DNA of 33,273 nucleotides, from assembly GCA_903882645.1 (NCBI GenBank), contig CAIRXZ010000279.1, positions 1 through 33,273 on the forward strand, written 5' to 3'. Positions 23,480 through 32,251 of this stretch are shown here, piece after piece. The stretch is from an uncultured Acidobacteriia bacterium (GTDB lineage: Bacteria; Acidobacteriota; Terriglobia; Bryobacterales; Bryobacteraceae). Position 1 is the stretch's first letter. The number at the start of each line of letters is the position of its first letter. The position numbers and the translations under genes were made by a program. Under the pieces are notes generated by a model, which had not been told where the DNA came from, did no database searches, and was given only the letters and a program-made list of their open reading frames with translations.

Positions 23480-26311
23480 CTATTGCACCGGGGCCTGCAC
23501 GGGGTTGACCACCGGGAAAGTCGCCAGGTTGCTCAGAAAAGCGTTCTGCGTGATGGTCAATGGCGCGAACGGATCGGTGCTTAGAGTGGACTGGAGCTGC
23601 AGCATCACCTCGAACACCCCGAAAGTGCCGGGCTTGGCCGCGACCTGAAGGACGTTGGCGGTCACGCCGGCGCTGGCCGCGCCCATTGCGTTCTGGGGCG
23701 TTGTGACCGGCGTGTTGGCGGGGAACTTCCGGCCAGTCACAAAGGCCGCGGCCGTCGCGTCGTTCGCAACCGGCAGACCAAGCCCGGTGGCATAGATCAG
23801 GATCGTTTCGCCCACCACCGCGGGGTTGTCGGGGGTCACCAGCGAGTACTGCACGCTGGCGCAACACAGGTTGTCGGTGAACGCCGTGAGCGTCAGTTCA
23901 CCCCCGTTGGTCACCGGGGCGGGCTTGTAGGCCACGCTGTAGGGCATGCCCTCCGCGGCCGGACCCTGGATGCGGGCCTGCAGAATGATGCGCGTGTACT
24001 CCGCCGTGGGAATGGCCCTGACTTGCGGATCGGCCAAGTTAATCATGGCGGCGAAAGCGTCGCGGACGCTCGCCAGCGTGTCCGTGCTCTGCACCGTATA
24101 GGAGTATATGCGCCCATTAATGCTGATCTGGCCGACATCGCCGGCAATGATGCCGCCGTCCACCGAGATCACGCCGGTCGCGTAACTGGACCCGTGGAGC
24201 ACTACCGCCGGACGCTGCGCGCCGCCGGTGAAGTACGTGAAAATCCCGGGGTTCGCCGGCACGATGGTAACCGCTACCGGAGTGGTCGCCACCACCGTGC
24301 CGTCGCTTGCAACGGACCGCACGAACGCATTGATGCTGGTGGTGTCCGCCACTTCCCACGGGATCTGAGCGTTAATCTGGCCGGGCGACACGTACAGCAG
24401 AGGCGCGCGGATGCCGTTCAAATAAACCTCGGCCCCCGCCAGATCCGTTGGCAATTGGTTCTGGCTCAGGTCCGCCACGGCTGTGCCGTAGGCCAGAACC
24501 GAGCCGGTGTTGGCGAAGATCGAAACCAGCGACCCCGGCGCAATCTGGGACGCGTCGTAGCCGCCGGTCAGCGACCCTCCGGGGGTTTGCACCGCGAGCT
24601 TCGCGTTGGCCGAGACCGCGGCCGTATAGTTTACGTTGTTCCCGGCCACGCCCTCCGCCCGCGCGTACAGCCGGACCGCGCTGTTCACGTGATCCGAGAC
24701 GGCTATCAGGTAGGGATCGCCCGCCCCGCCGTTACTGGAGTTGATTGCCGCGGCCACCCCGTCGCACACGGTGCTCAGCGTATCGTTGGACACCACCGTG
24801 TAGGTATAGGTGTTCGTGGTGGTCGTCCCGTTGGTGGTCTCCGAGACTGTGATTGTGACGACGTCTCCCGCATTGATGGCGCCGGAGAAATTCACGACCC
24901 CCTTTGAGTAGACATCGAAGCTCGCGCCGTTACGCACGCCCGAATACGGGATGCTGTTCGCGCCCATCGAAAAAACTGAAATCCGCCGGTTGAAGGCGTC
25001 GCTCACGAAGAGGTTCGTGCCGTCCCAGGCGAGCGACATCGGCGTTTGCAGCGAGTCGGCCGCGTCATAAGCCTGGGTGACGTTCGTCCCGAGCGCAGTG
25101 CCGAACTGCCCCAGCACGACGTCCGCCGAGGCCCCGCTCTGGGATGGGATCTTGTTGAAGATCAGGACCCGGTCGTTGCCGCCATCGGCCACGAACAGCC
25201 GGTTCCCGGCGGACAGCACGAAACGCGGGAAGTTCAGCGTGGCGTTGCAGAGATTGGGATAGGTGGGGTTGCTGTTGACGTCGACCCCGTTGGACACCGT
25301 GCAGAGCACCGGAGTTTCCACGCAAGCCGCCCCGATCGGGTTCGTCTGGCACGCAGTGCTGGTGGTGTTGACGGAATACGCGTTATTGGGGATCGAGCTG
25401 ACCAAGTCCGGCTGGCCGATCGCGGCGTCCGCGGGGGCTGCGTTCGAAGTGGGAATGGCGTTCCAGACCAGCACCCGGTTGTATCCCAGGTCCGCCACGT
25501 AGAGCCGCTGGCCATCGGAGGTCACCGCCACCGGGTTGAGCATGTTCGACGGGTTGGCGGCCGTGGTCTGTTGCGTGATGTCGATCTGCACGTAGGTGGT
25601 GAAGTTGGGCTGGCCCAAAACCACGTCGGCCGCCGCGCCGTTCGTGGCCGGAATCTGGTTGTAGATCAGCACGCGGTTGTTCTGCGTGTCCGCGACGTAC
25701 AGCTTCCCGTTCTGGATCCATACGCCCTGCGGCCCGAGCAGGGAGCTGGCGTTGGGAATGTTGTTTGGCGGCACGATGCTGCTCGTGAAATTCGGCTGCC
25801 CCACCACCACGTCGGCGGGCGCGTCGTTCGTCCGCGGGATGCGGTTCCAGATCAGGACCCGGTTGTGATCGGTATCGGCGACTGCCAGGTGGACGCCGTC
25901 GGACGCCACCGCGGTGGGCGTTCGCAGGCTGCTCTGCGTAATTGTGAGACCCAGCGCGGTAGTGGTGAAGTCCGGCTGGCCGAGAACCAGAGTGGCTTGG
26001 CCCAGGCACGCGGGGCACTTCCGGTTGTACGTCAGCTCGGCCGTGGGACTGGGCAGTTGGCTCGACAGGTTCTGAAACGCGAGCACGCGATTGTTGGACG
26101 GGGTGGCCTGCACGCGGTTCGAATCCGCCACAAACAGAGTGTCGGCCGCGTACGCGATGCCCGAGGGGGCCCCGAGAACGGTGTCGCTGGAATTCGGATC
26201 CTGGTTGGTGAAGGTCGCCTGGCCAATCACCAGCCTCGCGGCCTGTCCGGTCGTGAAATCGGCGGCGGCGGCCGCCGCCCCGAAAAGTAGGAAAACGGCA
26301 ATACACTTCAT
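23480..26311 (-). CDS. Secreted NHL-type beta-propeller protein with a Solibacter-type (TIGR03437) C-terminal domain
   Basis: The 943-residue product has a signal peptide (MKCIAVFLLFGAAAAAA). About 430 residues of repeats follow, alternating VxGQPxFT-type and ADxxNxRVLIWN-type motifs, i.e. NHL-like blades. Around residue 475 is a module reading INAGDVVTITVSE...YTYTVVSNDTLSTVCDGVAAAIN. From about 590 comes the TIGR03437 region (IAPGSLVSIFANTG, YLNGIRAPLLYVSPGQINAQIPWEV). That domain is interrupted near 717-800 by a second copy of the same kind of module (IAGDVGQISINGRIYSYTVQSTDTLASVRDAF) before it resumes at DNPAVVGETILIYATGLGLP. The start is ATG 26311; an upstream TTG lies inside the promoter -10. 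The role is probably extracellular or surface binding; the ligand is unknown. Confidence 0.85.
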   Translation of the reverse strand: MKCIAVFLLFGAAAAAADFTTGQAARLVIGQATFTNQDPNSSDTVLGAPSGIAYAADTLFVADSNRVQATPSNNRVLAFQNLSSQLPSPTAELTYNRKCPACLGQATLVLGQPDFTTTALGLTITQSSLRTPTAVASDGVHLAVADTDHNRVLIWNRIPRTNDAPADVVVGQPNFTSSIVPPNNIPNASSLLGPQGVWIQNGKLYVADTQNNRVLIYNQIPATNGAAADVVLGQPNFTTYVQIDITQQTTAANPSNMLNPVAVTSDGQRLYVADLGYNRVLVWNAIPTSNAAPADAAIGQPDLVSSIPNNAYSVNTTSTACQTNPIGAACVETPVLCTVSNGVDVNSNPTYPNLCNATLNFPRFVLSAGNRLFVADGGNDRVLIFNKIPSQSGASADVVLGQFGTALGTNVTQAYDAADSLQTPMSLAWDGTNLFVSDAFNRRISVFSMGANSIPYSGVRNGASFDVYSKGVVNFSGAINAGDVVTITVSETTNGTTTTNTYTYTVVSNDTLSTVCDGVAAAINSSNGGAGDPYLIAVSDHVNSAVRLYARAEGVAGNNVNYTAAVSANAKLAVQTPGGSLTGGYDASQIAPGSLVSIFANTGSVLAYGTAVADLSQNQLPTDLAGAEVYLNGIRAPLLYVSPGQINAQIPWEVADTTSINAFVRSVASDGTVVATTPVAVTIVPANPGIFTYFTGGAQRPAVVLHGSSYATGVISVDGGIIAGDVGQISINGRIYSYTVQSTDTLASVRDAFAAMINLADPQVRAIPTAEYTRIILQARIQGPAAEGMPYSVAYKPAPVTNGGELTLTAFTDNLCCASVQYSLVTPDNPAVVGETILIYATGLGLPVANDATAAAFVTGRKFPANTPVTTPQNAMGAASAGVTANVLQVAAKPGTFGVFEVMLQLQSTLSTDPFAPLTITQNAFLSNLATFPVVNPVQAPVQ

Positions 26312-26643: not shown

Positions 26644-27738
26644 GTGCGCGCCCTCATCCTGTTGGCCGCCGTTCCCTCGCTGTTCGCGCAGCCGGCGCAA
26701 ACACCCGCGCCGGTGTTCACGCGCGAAGGCATCGTTCCGCTCGAAGGCAACCGTCCGAAGCTCCTGGCGCCGGGAGCGGTCGTGGAACTCTACGGCCGGC
26801 ATCTGGCGCCCGATCCGTGGTGCGGCGAAAACCCCACGCCTCCCGCTCCCTACCCTGTCGAAGTTTGCGGAGTCCGCGTTCTGGTTGGAACCAGCCCGGC
26901 CGGGTTGATGCACGTCGGCTCCAGCCAAGTCAATTTCAAGATCCCGGCGGACGCGCCGGCCGAGGGCGCCGTACCGATTCAGGTTTGCGTGCGCGGCGTG
27001 TGCAGCGCTCCCATGTCAGTGCAATTCGGTACGCCCAAGGCGTTCCTTCGGTTGCGGGGAAGCGCGTCGGTTCACATGCCGGTCTGGGTTGAAATCGACG
27101 CGCCGGCGCCGGACCAAGTCAGGTATCCATGCGCGGACTGGCCCTGGAGCTTCGACGGCTACCAGTTTGAGGTGCGCCGGAACGGCCAACCGCTTGCGCC
27201 GGCGCCGCCGCCGAAGCGCGCCGGCGCGGCCCTCTCTTCAGGCCTTGAACCCAGCAAAGGCGGTTGCGGGGGCTTCGCTGCGCCATCCGCGCTTCCGCTT
27301 CATCTGCTCTACGATTTCGACCAGCCGGGCGTGTATTCGGTCCGCTTCACAGCTATGCAGCTTGTCGGACCGAGCCCCGGGATCGCATCCTGCCAATCGG
27401 ATTGGACCGACATCACCGTGGATCCCTACGCCGGCTCCAAACGCGACGAATGGCTTCAATCCATGGCGCAAAGACTGAAATCCGCCTCGCCACAGGTCCT
27501 GATCGCGGACGTCATCCCCTCGCTGCTCGCGTGGCCGGACGACAAGGCGCTCACCGTTCTCCTGCCGCTTCTCGCCCTGCCGGGTCCGAGAAGCGGCAGC
27601 GATCCGATCGGTTACGCCGGGCAATTCGCCCGCGCCAGCCTGGCCGCGTTCGACGACGATGTGCTCCGCCGCATCATTCCGCCGGACCGGCTTCTGAGTC
27701 TTTGTCCGCCCGATGGCCGCTGCCGCGCTACGAACTGA
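26644..27738 (+). CDS. Secreted protein with a TIGR03437-like N-terminal half, unknown function
   Basis: The 364-residue product (GTG start) has a short signal peptide (MRALILLAAVPSLFA). Residues about 40-130 recall the Solibacter-type domain (LLAPGAVVELYGRHLAP, VCGVRVLVGTSPAGLMHVGSSQVNFKIPADAP in two parts). A middle part with Trp, Cys and Tyr (YPCADWPWSFDGYQFEV) and a helical C-terminal region (WLQSMAQRLKSASPQVLIADVIPSLL) follow. Several cysteines suggest disulfides. It is divergent from the NHL/TIGR03437 gene, suggesting shared control or a functional pair. The function is unknown. Confidence 0.75.
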   Translation: MRALILLAAVPSLFAQPAQTPAPVFTREGIVPLEGNRPKLLAPGAVVELYGRHLAPDPWCGENPTPPAPYPVEVCGVRVLVGTSPAGLMHVGSSQVNFKIPADAPAEGAVPIQVCVRGVCSAPMSVQFGTPKAFLRLRGSASVHMPVWVEIDAPAPDQVRYPCADWPWSFDGYQFEVRRNGQPLAPAPPPKRAGAALSSGLEPSKGGCGGFAAPSALPLHLLYDFDQPGVYSVRFTAMQLVGPSPGIASCQSDWTDITVDPYAGSKRDEWLQSMAQRLKSASPQVLIADVIPSLLAWPDDKALTVLLPLLALPGPRSGSDPIGYAGQFARASLAAFDDDVLRRIIPPDRLLSLCPPDGRCRATN

Positions 27739-27951: not shown

Positions 27952-28437
27952 TTGCCCTGGAAAGGGGGGACCTTGCGCCAGTTCTTCCGGAACTCGGGTC
28001 ATCTCATTCGCCTCGCGGCCGTGCTGATCGCGGGACTCTGCGTCTTCCTGCTGATTCGTACCGCCCTGATTCCGAAAGCTTTCGGCAAGTACGGACACTA
28101 TAGCCCCGGGGCGCTCGACGTTATCCGCCAGCGCCCGGTCTCCTACGCGGGCCAGGACACTTGCGTAATGTGCCACGACGGCGAGGCCAAGGAACGCGCC
28201 TCGGGCCGGCACGCGCACGTCGCCTGCGAGGCTTGCCACGGGCCGCAGGCGGCCCACGCCAACGCCGACGACCCCTCGGCCCACAAGCCGCGGTTGCCCG
28301 ACGTCGCCAACCTCTGCCGGCGGTGCCATGAGAAGGATGCCGCCAAACCCGCCCACTTCCCGCAGGTGGTCACCGCCGAACATTCCGGCGGCGCGGCCTG
28401 CAACTCATGTCATCAGCCCCATAACCCGCATCTCTGA
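27952..28437 (+). CDS. Membrane-anchored tetraheme cytochrome c
   Basis: The 161-residue product has an N-terminal membrane helix (about 18-41) and four CxxCH heme sites at 71-75 (CVMCH), 92-96 (CEACH), 122-126 (CRRCH) and 150-154 (CNSCH). The heme domain should face the periplasm, and extra histidines could be distal ligands. Starts: TTG 27952 has GGGGAGG (27941-27947) 4 nt upstream. TTG 27973 also follows a G-run and would give MRQFFRNSGH; both keep the anchor. It is followed after 14 nt by the Fe-S gene and then by nrfD, so it is probably the periplasmic electron-exchange subunit of that complex. It resembles the small multiheme subunits of NrfBCD- or DsrJOP-type units, but the assignment is by architecture only. 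Confidence 0.88.
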   Translation: MPWKGGTLRQFFRNSGHLIRLAAVLIAGLCVFLLIRTALIPKAFGKYGHYSPGALDVIRQRPVSYAGQDTCVMCHDGEAKERASGRHAHVACEACHGPQAAHANADDPSAHKPRLPDVANLCRRCHEKDAAKPAHFPQVVTAEHSGGAACNSCHQPHNPHL

Positions 28438-28451
28438 GCCAAGGAGCCATG

Positions 28452-29201
28452 ATGGAACTCAGCCGGCGAGACCTGATTACAATAGGCGGCAAGCTGCTCG
28501 TCCTGGCGTCCGTGGGAGCCGCGTTTGAGGAGATCACGGGCGCCGCCCCGCCCAGCGAAGCCTACAAAATGGCCGAGCACTGGTGGGGCATGATCGTCGA
28601 TATCGACAAGTGCATCGGCTGCGGCAACTGCGTGCGCGCCTGCTCCAATGAAAACGGCGTTCCCAAGGGATACTTCCGCACCTGGGTGGAGCGCTACGAA
28701 GTCGAGAATGTGGACGGCAGGCAGGAGCCGCACGTGGAATCGCCCAACGGCGCGATCGACGGCTTCCCGCCCTCCACGCGCCAGGACGTCAAGAGCTTCT
28801 ACGTGCCCAAGCTCTGCAACCATTGCGTCGATTCGCCCTGCGTGCAGGTCTGCCCCGTGGGCGCCACCTTCGTCAGCCCGGATGGCGTGGTGCTGGTGGA
28901 TGAGAACTACTGTTTGGGCTGCCGCTATTGCATCCAGGCGTGCCCATACGGCTGCCGCTATCTGCATCCCGAGAAGAGAACGGCCGACAAGTGCACGCTC
29001 TGCTACCACCGCATCACCCAGGGGCTGACCACCGCCTGTTGCGAAAACTGCCCCACCGGCGCCCGGCAACTGGTGGATTTCAAGAACCCCAAGGACCCCG
29101 TCCACGAGTTTCTGCGCACGAATAAAGTGGAAGTCCTGAAGCCATACATGGCCACTGGAGCCAAGGTCTACTACAAAGACCTCGACGGCTCGGTGCGATA
29201 G
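28452..29201 (+). CDS. Tat-exported four-cluster [4Fe-4S] ferredoxin subunit (NrfC/PsrB/DsrO type)
   Basis: The 249-residue product begins with a twin-arginine motif (SRRDLITIGG) and hydrophobic stretch, so it is folded before export. Four cysteine groups are visible: C54/57/60/64 (CIGCGNCVRAC), C122/125/130/134 (CNHCVDSPCVQVC), C154/157/160/164 (CLGCRYCIQAC), and C181/184 with C196 or C197 and C200. This is the ordinary layout of electron-transfer subunits of molybdopterin-type or NrfD-type complexes. Of two adjacent ATGs (28449, 28452), the second is 5 nt from AAGGAG and is preferred. The gene is tightly spaced with the cytochrome (14 nt) and NrfD (7 nt) genes. Confidence 0.93.
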   Translation: MELSRRDLITIGGKLLVLASVGAAFEEITGAAPPSEAYKMAEHWWGMIVDIDKCIGCGNCVRACSNENGVPKGYFRTWVERYEVENVDGRQEPHVESPNGAIDGFPPSTRQDVKSFYVPKLCNHCVDSPCVQVCPVGATFVSPDGVVLVDENYCLGCRYCIQACPYGCRYLHPEKRTADKCTLCYHRITQGLTTACCENCPTGARQLVDFKNPKDPVHEFLRTNKVEVLKPYMATGAKVYYKDLDGSVR

Positions 29202-29208
29202 GAGCGAA

Positions 29209-30384
29209 ATGGCGATTCCCGGCGTTGAAGGGTTCATGTATCCGAACGAGGTGGAGCTGCAATGGGGCTTGCTGATCGTGCTCTACCCGTACATCACCGG
29301 CCTGGTGGCAGGCGCGTTCATTCTGGCTTCGCTCGAACGGGTATTCAAGGTCGAGGCCGTGCGGCCTACCTACCGCCTGGCGCTGCTCACCGCGCTGGCG
29401 TTCCTGCTGGTTGCCCCGCTGCCGCTGCAGCTCCACCTGGGCCACCCGGAGCGTTCCATGGAGATGTACCTCACGCCGCACACCTCCTCGGCCATGGCCA
29501 TGTTCGGCTTCGTATACCTGTGGTACCTCACGGTAGTGCTGCTGCTCGAAATCTGGCTGGAATACCGCGCCGATATCGTGCATATGGCGCGGACCTCCAC
29601 CGGCCTGAAGGGCCTGATCTACAAGGCGCTCACTTTGGGATCGATGAACGTCAGCCCCGCTTCGCGCGTCATCGACGATAAGGTGGGTTATGCCGTCACC
29701 GTGATCGGCATCCCTTCGGCGTTCCTGCTCCACGGCTATGTGGGCTTTATCTTCGGCTCCGTGAAAGCCAACCCGTGGTGGTCCACGCCGTTGATGCCCA
29801 TCGTGTTTCTGTTTTCCGCGATGGTCTCCGGCATCGCCGGCGTGATGGTGCTCTACATGGCCGTCATGAAGGCCAAGAAAATGCCCATCGACATGCGCTG
29901 CGTGGACACCATCGCCAAGTACCTGTTCTACACCTTCGTCATCGACTTTTCCCTCGAGATGCTGGACCTGGTGCACCGCACCTACGAGGCCGACGAGTCG
30001 TTTCGCAGCCTCAACTTCATGGTGCATACGCGCCTGTGGGGATCCCAGGTGATCCTGCAGATCTTTCTCTGCACGCTCGTGCCCCTCGCTTTGCTGGCTT
30101 CGACCCAGTTGTTCAGGATCGGGGAGGCCAAGCGCCGGGCGATGTATCTAATCACGGGCCTGCTGGTGCTGGTGGGCATCTTCGCCATGCGTTGGAACGT
30201 GGTCATCGGCGGCCAGTTGTTCTCCAAAAGCTTCCTGGGTTACACGAGCTTCAAGGTGCAATTCGCCGCGCGCGAAGGGCTGCTTACGGCCATTGCCCTG
30301 ATGATCCTGCCATTTGCGATATTTGTTGCGCTGGTGAAGCTCCTGCCTCCGTGGCCGGAGACCACCGAAGCGCCGGGCGATTGA
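29209..30384 (+). CDS. NrfD/PsrC-family quinone-interacting membrane subunit
   Basis: NrfD-type subunits oxidise or reduce membrane quinones and pass electrons to the Fe-S partner. The 391-residue product has about nine or ten hydrophobic segments, starting after NEVELQWGLLIVLYPYITG. It shows LVAPLPLQLHLGHPERSMEMYL, which carries the family's HLG-x-P motif near 80, and HTSSAMAMFGFVYLWYL, then HGYVGFIFGSVKANPWWSTPLMP. AGGAG lies 4 nt before the ATG. It is third in an operon with the tetraheme cytochrome and ferredoxin subunit. No catalytic molybdopterin or reductase gene precedes or follows it in the window. Confidence 0.93.
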   Translation: MAIPGVEGFMYPNEVELQWGLLIVLYPYITGLVAGAFILASLERVFKVEAVRPTYRLALLTALAFLLVAPLPLQLHLGHPERSMEMYLTPHTSSAMAMFGFVYLWYLTVVLLLEIWLEYRADIVHMARTSTGLKGLIYKALTLGSMNVSPASRVIDDKVGYAVTVIGIPSAFLLHGYVGFIFGSVKANPWWSTPLMPIVFLFSAMVSGIAGVMVLYMAVMKAKKMPIDMRCVDTIAKYLFYTFVIDFSLEMLDLVHRTYEADESFRSLNFMVHTRLWGSQVILQIFLCTLVPLALLASTQLFRIGEAKRRAMYLITGLLVLVGIFAMRWNVVIGGQLFSKSFLGYTSFKVQFAAREGLLTAIALMILPFAIFVALVKLLPPWPETTEAPGD

Positions 30385-30472
30385 CGGAGCCGCTAGGGGC
30401 CGGAGGGGCCGGGCATGGCCGGCCAACGATTTTTCACGGCTTCTGACGGCCGATTGCGCGAAGGAGGCTCGA

Positions 30473-32251
30473 GTGCCGCAACCCGAACCCGCGGCGGCTC
30501 CGGATTGGAGCGCCTTGCAGCGCGAGTTGCGCGGCCTCGAAGGCCGCATTGCGCAGATCGAACGCCACCTGGCTCTAACGCCGCCGGAGTTGCTCGCGTC
30601 ATCCGGATTGGCTCCGGAGGATGCCTCCGGCCCATCCGCCGGCCCGGAGCCGTCCGCCGCTTCCATCTTCCCCCTCGCCGGCCGAGCTTTGCTGGGCCTC
30701 GCCGGCGCCTACCTTCTGCGGGCCTTGACCGAATCCGCGGTTCTGTCCTCCGGAGCCGGCGTCGCGATCGGCATTCTTTACGCCATCCTCTGGCTGGTGT
30801 GGGCCGCGCGCACGCCCGCCGAACGCCGCCTGGAAACCGCCCTCCACAGCGTGACCTCCGTGCTGGTGCTCGCGCCCCTGCTGTGGGAGGCCGCCCTGCG
30901 CTTCCATGCGATCTCCACCTGGACCGCGGGCGCCATCCTCCTGTTCTTCACCGTCTTCGGGCTGGTGGTCTCCTGGCGCAAGAATCTGCTGGTAGTCGCG
31001 ACCATCGCCATGCTCGCGGGATTAGGCACGGCAGCCGCCCTGCTGATGGCCACTCACGACGTCCTGCCGTTCACATTCGTGTTCCTGGCAACCGCCGCCG
31101 CCGTGGAGATCTCCGCCTGCCTCGACCATTGGCTGAGCGAGCGCTGGCTGGCCGCCGCCGCCGCCGATCTTTCGGTGCTGCTGGCCACCTGGCTGGTCAC
31201 CAACGAACGTGGATTGCCGCGGGCCTACGCTCCCATCCCGCCGGGCTGGCTTCTGGCGGCGCAGGCGGCGCTGCTCGCCATTTATCTCTCCAGCATCATT
31301 GTCCGCACCCTGCTGCGCGGGTTCACCTTCACCGCGTTCGAAACCGTGCAGTGCGCCCTGGCCTTTGCCATCGGGGTAGGCGGCGGTCTTCGCCTCTCCC
31401 AGGGGGCCCCCGCTATTGCCGCCCTGGCTCTGGCGTGCTCCATGGCTTGTTACCTTGTGGCGTTCACCCGCCTGGAGCGCCAGCCTTCGCGCGGCCGCAA
31501 TTTCTACACCTATTCGACGTTCGCGCTCCTGTTGGCGCTGACCGGCAGCCGCATTCTGCTTTCCGGAGCGGCGTTGGCCGCCGTGTGGGCGGCCTTGGCC
31601 ATTGGCTTCATCTGGGCCGCCGGATTCCTGGGGCGCCTGACGCTCGAAGCGCACGGAGCGGTTTACCTGCTGTTGGCTCTGATCTCTTGCGGCGCGCCGC
31701 GGCTGGCCGCCAGCTTCCTGCTGGGATCCGATCTCCCCGGCCCGAACCAGGCGGCGCTCTGGGCGGGCGCGGCCGCGGCCCTCCCCTGCTACTTACTGGC
31801 AAGGCGCTGCGCCGCCGGACGCGATGGCTTCGCCGCTCGTCTCAACCGCCTGGCCATCGCCGGCGCTTTGACGTGGCTTTCCGCGGGAGTCCTCGCCTGG
31901 GCGCTCACCGCCGCCTACCATGCCGCGCGCGGCGCCGGAGCCAGCCACGCTTACTGCGCCACGTTGCGTACCACCGTGCTGGTTGCTTCGGCGCTGCTGC
32001 TCGCCTGGGCCGGCTCGCGCTGGAAGAACTGGGAGCTTTCCCTCCTCACTTACCCGCTCATGGCGTTAGGCGCGTACCGCCTCCTGGCGGAGGATCTCCA
32101 TCAGGACCGCAAGGCCGTGCTTTTCCTCTCCCTCCTGGTCTACGGCGCCGCCCTCACCGCTCTGCCTCGTTTGTACCGAGGCCAGTGGGGCGGACCTCCT
32201 GGTCTGCCTGCTCTCCGCGACGCACGTTCGAGCGATGCCAGACTCGACTGA
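30473..32251 (+). CDS. DUF2339-like polytopic membrane protein
   Basis: The 592-residue product starts with a short helical, coiled-coil-like segment (LQRELRGLEGRIAQIERHL) and a Pro/Ala linker, followed by about 16 hydrophobic segments rich in Ala and Leu from residue 60 to about 565. The layout matches DUF2339 proteins, whose function is unknown; the family call is tentative. GTG 30473 is well supported by AAGGAGG 5 nt upstream. The last 23 or so residues (from about GQWGGPPGLPALRD) are encoded by the left arm of the inverted repeat at 32184, so the native C-terminus may have been replaced. It lies 88 bp after the NrfD gene. Confidence 0.75.
   Translation: MPQPEPAAAPDWSALQRELRGLEGRIAQIERHLALTPPELLASSGLAPEDASGPSAGPEPSAASIFPLAGRALLGLAGAYLLRALTESAVLSSGAGVAIGILYAILWLVWAARTPAERRLETALHSVTSVLVLAPLLWEAALRFHAISTWTAGAILLFFTVFGLVVSWRKNLLVVATIAMLAGLGTAAALLMATHDVLPFTFVFLATAAAVEISACLDHWLSERWLAAAAADLSVLLATWLVTNERGLPRAYAPIPPGWLLAAQAALLAIYLSSIIVRTLLRGFTFTAFETVQCALAFAIGVGGGLRLSQGAPAIAALALACSMACYLVAFTRLERQPSRGRNFYTYSTFALLLALTGSRILLSGAALAAVWAALAIGFIWAAGFLGRLTLEAHGAVYLLLALISCGAPRLAASFLLGSDLPGPNQAALWAGAAAALPCYLLARRCAAGRDGFAARLNRLAIAGALTWLSAGVLAWALTAAYHAARGAGASHAYCATLRTTVLVASALLLAWAGSRWKNWELSLLTYPLMALGAYRLLAEDLHQDRKAVLFLSLLVYGAALTALPRLYRGQWGGPPGLPALRDARSSDARLD

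Follow-up and report, generated by a model that had tools for sequence, protein, structure and literature searches.

The window analyzed here is the whole of contig C279 (33,273 bases), part of a 5.27-Mb draft genome of an uncultured acidobacterium of the family Bryobacteraceae. On its plus strand lie genes for a tetraheme c-type cytochrome, a four-cluster ferredoxin and an NrfD-type membrane protein, to which we refer together as the triad, followed by a fourth gene, to which we refer as D4. A previous reading made from the DNA alone (here, the sequence-only reading) had placed a three-gene respiratory unit without a catalytic gene at positions 27952 to 30384. All three genes were indeed present, with support from Pfam matches and CXXCH motifs. 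The extent needed adjustment at both ends, since TTG 27973, rather than 27952, is the probable start of the cytochrome and the unit is larger, with the fourth gene behind NrfD.

The cytochrome gene (27973 to 28437) encodes 154 residues, or 161 if read from 27952, with four CXXCH motifs and an N-terminal hydrophobic stretch that we read as a membrane anchor. The TTG codon lies directly 3' of a G-rich run resembling a ribosome-binding site. Against Pfam, the protein scored 24.6 bits with Cytochrom_c3_2, slightly below the cut-off of 25, and 21.8 bits with Paired_CXXCH_1, above the cut-off of 20.6. The ferredoxin (28449 to 29201, 250 residues) has four [4Fe-4S] sites and several Pfam matches, among them Fer4_11 at 86.9 bits; its Tat-type N terminus carries the twin-arginine motif SRRDLI, which points to a periplasmic location. 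NrfD (29209 to 30384, 391 residues), the presumed integral membrane quinone subunit, matched PF03916 at 127 bits (cut-off, 25.8). A search of the PDB sequences with its sequence profile gave no match at E ≤ 1, but a fold search did find ActC of alternative complex III (ACIII): the AlphaFold model (pLDDT, 74.8) aligned to ActC over 362 to 366 residues with Z scores of 32.5 to 33.9 and a root mean square deviation (RMSD) of 2.9 to 3.1 Å, and to PsrC with a Z score of 19.4. Membership of the PF03916 superfamily is thus given by both the gathering score and the NrfD/ActC fold. The gap of 7 nt before NrfD was as previously reported; before the ferredoxin, counting to ATG 28449 gives 11 nt and counting to ATG 28452 the reported 14 nt.

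We compared the window with 40 orthologous neighborhoods fetched from genomes of the same family. These 41 loci came from 40 genomes, one of which (G108) supplied two, and they are included in a larger set of 121 loci in which some contigs occur twice; a further set of 109 loci overlaps with the latter. Genes were called with a simple codon-score caller that misses short genes, so that the cytochrome was called in 22 of the 41 loci, compared to 39 by a direct heme scan. It lay upstream of the ferredoxin in all 39, and in the other two loci the contig ended 0 and 90 nt upstream. The 16 cysteines of the Fe-S sites were invariant in all 41 ferredoxins, and the arginine pair was found near the start of 34 of them as called. 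The cytochrome carried four hemes in 35 loci and eight in four divergent ones, and in the tetraheme form the four CXXCH motifs and six other histidines were invariant (35/35). The octaheme cytochrome of divergent relatives (L062 to L065, L241 and L242) resembles a tandem doubling of the four-heme form. Among the 109 further loci, the ferredoxin adjoined NrfD in 107 and the cytochrome was in place in 103, all misses having less than 800 nt of upstream DNA. This conserved gene order bears out the proposal of one operon; that its products form a single complex we infer.

The sequence-only reading had called for a survey of this neighborhood in other Bryobacterales. In our survey within the family the order cytochrome-ferredoxin-NrfD-D4 recurred, with no recurrent catalytic gene: outside the four genes, no neighbor family appeared in more than 9 of the 121 loci, in agreement with the reported absence of a catalytic neighbor. 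One member was scanned from each of the five commonest neighbor families (present in 9, 6, 5, 5 and 5 loci), and among these, namely a 3-keto-disaccharide hydrolase, a histidine kinase, a metallo-β-lactamase-fold protein, a sulfatase and a mandelate racemase family member, none was respiratory; other families found in 4 or 5 loci were left unscanned. Multiheme neighbors (at least five CXXCH motifs, the triad cytochrome excluded) were called in 5 of the 121 loci (L059, L063, L064, L152 and L178). At three triad loci without an adjacent D4, a c554-like cytochrome with four or five called CXXCH motifs was seen (L059, 8559 to 9659; L064, 12501 to 13601; L063, 5515 to 6477), weakly similar to the ExtKL family. 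At L178, a cytochrome b and an eight-heme cytochrome lie behind D4 in the opposite direction.

The gene behind NrfD, previously listed as a mere DUF2339-like neighbor, proved to be a conserved fourth member of the locus. In the window it spans 30473 to 32251 on the plus strand, with a GTG start, and encodes a polytopic protein of 592 residues from a divergent DUF2339-related family, whose N-terminal helix we read as a coiled coil. In 33 of the 41 loci D4 was the gene directly behind NrfD, in the same orientation (505 to 601 residues in copies not truncated at a contig edge), and it was present in 85 of the 121 loci, compared to 9 for the runner-up family. In 15 of the 33 loci its start lay within 10 nt of the nrfD end or overlapped it. 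The gap in the window is 88 nt and contains a terminator-like hairpin with a T tail (30407 to 30424, plus strand), a consensus match that is not evidence of function; four such sites were observed between 27600 and 30600, against 2.4 expected from shuffled sequences.

Co-occurrence was assessed in samples drawn from the family (150 genomes) and the phylum (396 genomes), with tests that ignore shared ancestry. A clear NrfD ortholog was found in 50 of the 150 family genomes, full-length copies being 58 to 100% identical and the next matches at most 35%. D4 was present in 44 of these 50 triad genomes, compared to 2 of the 100 others, and in three triad genomes (G036, G015 and G142) it was on a different contig from the triad. 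In the two genomes with D4 and no triad (G082 and G035), a D4 copy lay beside genes for a Rieske protein, cytochrome b and a 9- or 8-heme cytochrome, and G035 had a partial second copy as well. The phylum sample held the NrfD ortholog in 54 genomes, down to 43% identity, and D4 in 66. When 84,980 species genomes were scanned with NrfD, there were at least 518 matches; the top 80 of these were at least 68% identical, and 79 of the 80 were titled as acidobacteria. The exception (L190), a contig titled Bifidobacterium breve whose triad is of the usual acidobacterial type, is probably mislabeled or from a mixed bin. Searching plasmids with NrfD returned 17 records, the top-ranked being 29% identical and from a haloarchaeon, and another haloarchaeal match adjoining a molybdopterin oxidoreductase gene; searching them with D4 returned no match.

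To place the triad among known systems, a phylogeny of NrfD proteins (38 rows) was built, as the sequence-only reading had suggested. The window-type NrfDs formed a clade of their own (support, 98/98). This clade stood near E. coli NrfD and the anchors of molybdopterin enzymes, on long branches; the positions of the long-branched rows (ActF, E. coli NrfD, HybB and L274) are unsure. Among the 25 NCBIfam families shown of 46 matched, the ferredoxin was below every cut-off, scoring best with TtrB, DsrO and NrfC; NrfD reached 30 of 450 bits with HybB. The likeness to NrfBCD or DsrJOP noted previously holds for composition, with the NrfC, NrfD, DsrO and DsrP cut-offs all missed. NrfABCD, which shares a multiheme cytochrome c, an Fe-S protein and NrfD with the triad and includes the nearest named row of the tree, E. 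coli NrfD, whose branch is very long, was rejected on scores of 138.8 of 377.6 bits for NrfC and 48.2 of 347.6 for NrfD; moreover, NrfB carries five hemes according to the accessible part of a family review (PMC8076601). DsrMKJOP has a comparable periplasmic arm of heme c, Fe-S and NrfD-type subunits, but the window cytochrome has four hemes and not three, and the scores were 166 of 200 bits for DsrO and 43 of 350 for DsrP. QrcABCD was rejected with QrcC at 96.7 of 400 bits and no QrcD match at E ≤ 0.001. ACIII resembles the triad in the fold of the NrfD model and in its quinol:cytochrome c function; it differs in its fused ActB of about 1,000 residues, compared to a ferredoxin of 250, and in its pentaheme ActA. 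A separate ACIII-like set, with a five-heme cytochrome, a fused Fe-S protein of 1,001 residues and NrfD, is present on contig C211 of the same genome.

We further searched for a catalytic partner elsewhere in the genome. No match to NrfA (PF02335) or DsrA (TIGR02064) was found in it, and its two molybdopterin (PF00384) proteins, one of them in a nuo-like gene order, both lie on contigs without NrfD. As far as NrfA, DsrA and these PF00384 proteins go, we thus did not find what would have overturned the sequence-only reading, namely membership of a known family with its catalytic gene encoded elsewhere.

Modules of this composition that lack a catalytic subunit have been described in other bacteria, and the triad is therefore not a new kind of complex. 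In the excerpts of the reports available to us, CbcSTU, the Cbc4 complex of Geobacter, is a menaquinol:ferricytochrome c oxidoreductase without a catalytic subunit (PMC11434368), with genes in G. metallireducens (PMC10989804), and it combines a tetraheme cytochrome c, an Fe-S protein and an NrfD/b-type membrane subunit, as the triad does by gene content. SirCD is similarly reported to replace CymA in Shewanella (PMC11434368). For MBNT15 and Melioribacter roseus, which belong to other phyla, the accessible text describes quinol-oxidizing modules of Fe-S, NrfD and multiheme c subunits, in which the cytochrome replaces a molybdopterin subunit, and contains no mention of D4 (PMC9386147). We liken the triad to CbcSTU by composition and to these latter modules by description, not by sequence, and it differs from CbcSTU in the conserved fourth gene and in the octaheme form of some relatives. 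A similar replacement is suggested by the nearest NrfDs outside the triad: of the three examined (30 to 34% identical), two precede a gene for a protein of about 1,050 residues, the one scanned being TtrA-like, and the third is truncated at the edge of its contig. The cytochrome may thus have taken the place of a molybdopterin subunit. One study of an acidobacterial genome placed its NrfD proteins in the DsrMKJOP, Qrc, Hyd and DmsC groups, in the portion that we could consult (PMC10564751). In a partial and not exhaustive search of the literature, we found no report of the window-type clade or of D4 in such modules. The working principle being known, what looks new is the clade in Acidobacteriota, the octaheme form of it and the recurrent partnership with D4.

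Since there is no recurrent catalytic neighbor and neither NrfA nor DsrA was found in the genome, the proposal of a stand-alone conduit between quinone and periplasm appears probable. By analogy to Geobacter CbcSTU, we consider it likely, at a probability of about 0.7, that the four genes encode one membrane module acting as a stand-alone quinol:periplasmic-cytochrome oxidoreductase. Quinol, probably menaquinol, would be oxidized at the periplasmic face of NrfD. Electrons would then cross the exported ferredoxin by way of its four [4Fe-4S] clusters, reach the four hemes of the anchored cytochrome, and move on to other periplasmic multiheme cytochromes rather than to a dedicated reductase. D4 would partner the module, whether in its assembly, by shaping its lipid or quinone environment or as an extra subunit.

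A candidate end point of this chain lies on contig C185 of the same genome (locus L301, 675 to 6951, minus strand). There, a gene for an OmcA/MtrC-family decaheme cytochrome (505.1 bits; cut-off, 209.3) adjoins one of the DmsE family (263 bits; cut-off, 192.2), which we take to be the family of MtrA, and the pair is followed by a protein without a family assignment and a protein with four CXXCH motifs. Judged from its sequence, this set is likely an outer-membrane electron conduit, and it could lead electrons from the module out of the cell. In another acidobacterium (L152), the triad has divergently oriented neighbors that are related to the DmsE-type gene (39% identical) and to the unassigned protein (28% identical over 213 residues), an adjacency which is no more than suggestive of a link to such an acceptor.

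D4 was also found near other respiratory genes. It opens the operon of a different tetraheme-Fe-S-NrfD triad in 13 loci, all from one genus, and in two other families it adjoins this second triad or is found in its vicinity; five further loci of the phylum have it near genes for Rieske and cytochrome b proteins and 9- to 11-heme cytochromes, and two (L237 and L245) beside [NiFe] hydrogenase operons. Such bc-type sets, with 8 to 11 hemes in their cytochromes, recur near D4 at L191, L193, L250, L251, L252, L254 and L256. For uniform scoring, a locus was taken to have a module when either a listed respiratory module or any gene with four or more CXXCH motifs lay within 5 kb of D4. Two loci were left out beforehand: L192 nearly duplicates L191, which comes from the same genome, and L194 holds a partial D4 copy with unclear neighbors. 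Of the 44 loci entered, L258 was dropped for want of a strong D4, and a module was found in 32 of the remaining 43. Removal of four loci with a window-type triad nearby (L241, L242, L244 and L267) left 39, and 28 of these had a module, compared to 1 of 20 control places that we picked at distant positions on D4-bearing contigs of 20 of these genomes. Outside the over-represented genus that supplied the 13 loci, the fraction was 15 of 26, and after removal of the loci that had supplied queries it was 12 of 23 (p = 0.0009 versus controls).

The D4 model (pLDDT, 88) has 17 helices of at least 18 residues. Its comparison with the PDB gave nothing at a Foldseek E value ≤ 0.001; the top rows were mostly helical-repeat proteins, many of them designed, the first with an RMSD of 13.9. 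Against PF10101 (DUF2339), the window copy scored 8.7 bits, far below the cut-off of 33.6, while the L237 copy scored 35.7, and 6 of 23 D4 relatives matched at E ≤ 0.01. By sequence, then, the kinship of D4 with DUF2339 is distant. Arc3A of Pseudomonas aeruginosa, the one studied DUF2339 protein that we came across, limits lysophospholipid accumulation according to the available part of its description (PMC8926400), which we regard as a lead on lipid or quinone handling by D4 and not as a result. The context of D4 differs in being respiratory. Our search of the literature, again partial and not exhaustive, found no report of a DUF2339 protein with respiratory complexes.

A number of observations weigh against one or another part of this reading. 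DsrA was commoner in triad genomes (13/50 versus 3/100, p = 4.5 × 10^-5), as might be expected if the triad anchored to the membrane a reductase (for nitrite or sulfite, or of the molybdopterin type) encoded elsewhere, and the proteins of about 1,050 residues behind two of the nearest NrfDs could be taken in the same sense. Nevertheless, 37 of the 50 triad genomes showed no DsrA above the cut-off, and the excess therefore perhaps reflects anaerobic lifestyles. One dsr cluster that was scanned carries its own DsrP (457.9 bits), and NrfA was not enriched and if anything rarer in triad genomes (9/50 versus 33/100, p = 0.057) at a threshold of 180 bits, which was our own choice; the curated cut-off was passed by 59 of the 150 genomes, many with short matches. 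Together with the results from the window's own genome, this makes a role as such an anchor very unlikely. NrfD complexes can also run the other way. QrcABCD and NhcABCD, composed of multiheme c, Fe-S and NrfD subunits, are described in the parts of the sources at hand as cytochrome c3:quinone oxidoreductases (PMC8076601, PMC13059093), QrcABCD reducing menaquinone with proton uptake and without pumping (PMC13059093), although NrfD subunits may translocate ions according to the family review (PMC8076601). The window complex would, in that case, feed the quinone pool from cytochromes reduced by hydrogen or other donors, and the [NiFe] hydrogenase operons beside D4 at two loci are consistent with this. 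However, no family other than the four members recurs in more than 9 of the 121 triad loci (hydrogenases were not searched genome-wide), the QrcC score was far below its cut-off and QrcD was not among the NrfD matches, so that we regard the reverse direction as improbable. The end point on C185 is met by further objections: DmsE-type genes occur in 140 of the 150 family genomes, with the triad (49/50) or without it (91/100), they neighbor the triad in only 1 of the 121 loci, and no MtrB-family barrel was seen beside the decaheme genes, as judged by Pfam for the L152 protein and by NCBIfam for the L152 and C185 proteins. Furthermore, at L063 (5515 to 12112, minus strand) the octaheme triad is followed after 1 nt by genes for a Rieske protein, cytochrome b, a nine-heme cytochrome and the c554-like multiheme protein, arranged as if in one operon. 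The triad may thus partner a bc-type complex in some lineages.

Other such points concern D4. Since it is absent from 6 of the 50 triad genomes of the family and occurs without the triad, D4 is not obligatory as a subunit. Across the phylum sample it accompanies the triad in only 24 of the 54 triad genomes, and 42 genomes have it without the triad. The list of modules was drawn up after some D4 loci had been seen, and no listed module lay within 5 kb at 11 of the 39 loci without a window-type triad, or at 11 of 26 outside the one genus. Such loci, along with the activity of Arc3A, would fit a general membrane protein that is merely carried along, for example in lipid homeostasis. This explanation, which concerns D4 alone and is compatible with a conduit formed by the triad, seems rather unlikely to us in view of the enrichment of modules over control places, which persisted outside the genus and without the query loci. 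We thus take D4 for a partner of the module and not a chance neighbor, and infer its role. Beyond this, and as a tentative proposal only, the D4 family may be a shared and required partner of structurally unrelated quinone-linked, periplasm-facing modules, including two NrfD triads, bc-type sets with 8- to 11-heme cytochromes and [NiFe] hydrogenases. Its members could then assist quinol-to-periplasm electron export in general, perhaps as ring-like membrane proteins handling the quinone or lipid that surrounds the complexes, in a chain ending at MtrC/MtrA-type outer-membrane cytochromes.

Several further loci were noted along the way. The window's own genome has a second tetraheme-Fe-S-NrfD triad on contig C259 (L037, 448 to 3612, minus strand), whose NrfD, at 420.6 bits, exceeds the DsrP cut-off of 350, though no DsrA was found in the genome. 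At L039 (20 to 4944), L273 and L276, an Fe-S and NrfD pair without a cytochrome is followed by a sensor kinase and a response regulator, as read from the sequence without a family scan; the NrfD of L039 is HmcC/HybB-like, and such a pair is possibly a quinone or redox sensor. L275 (1517 to 9556) encodes a four-heme protein, small proteins and a protein of 673 residues whose NrfD portion shows a loose grouping with ActC and ActF. Upstream of the triad, the window encodes a secreted protein (26644 to 27738) with a Solibacter C-terminal domain (TIGR03437, 44.7 bits); this gene and that at 23480 to 26311 were found beside the triad in only one other of the 40 loci (L075).

Soil acidobacteria are abundant and poorly understood. 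In the organism studied here, the module would be a respiratory branch that feeds a periplasmic or extracellular acceptor besides the ACIII-like complex of the genome, and, given the decaheme genes on C185, an extracellular end point can be tested. D4 is the part most worth testing. If several respiratory modules share it as a partner, this would give a testable function to part of DUF2339, and D4 would also serve as a genomic marker for further quinone-linked conduits.

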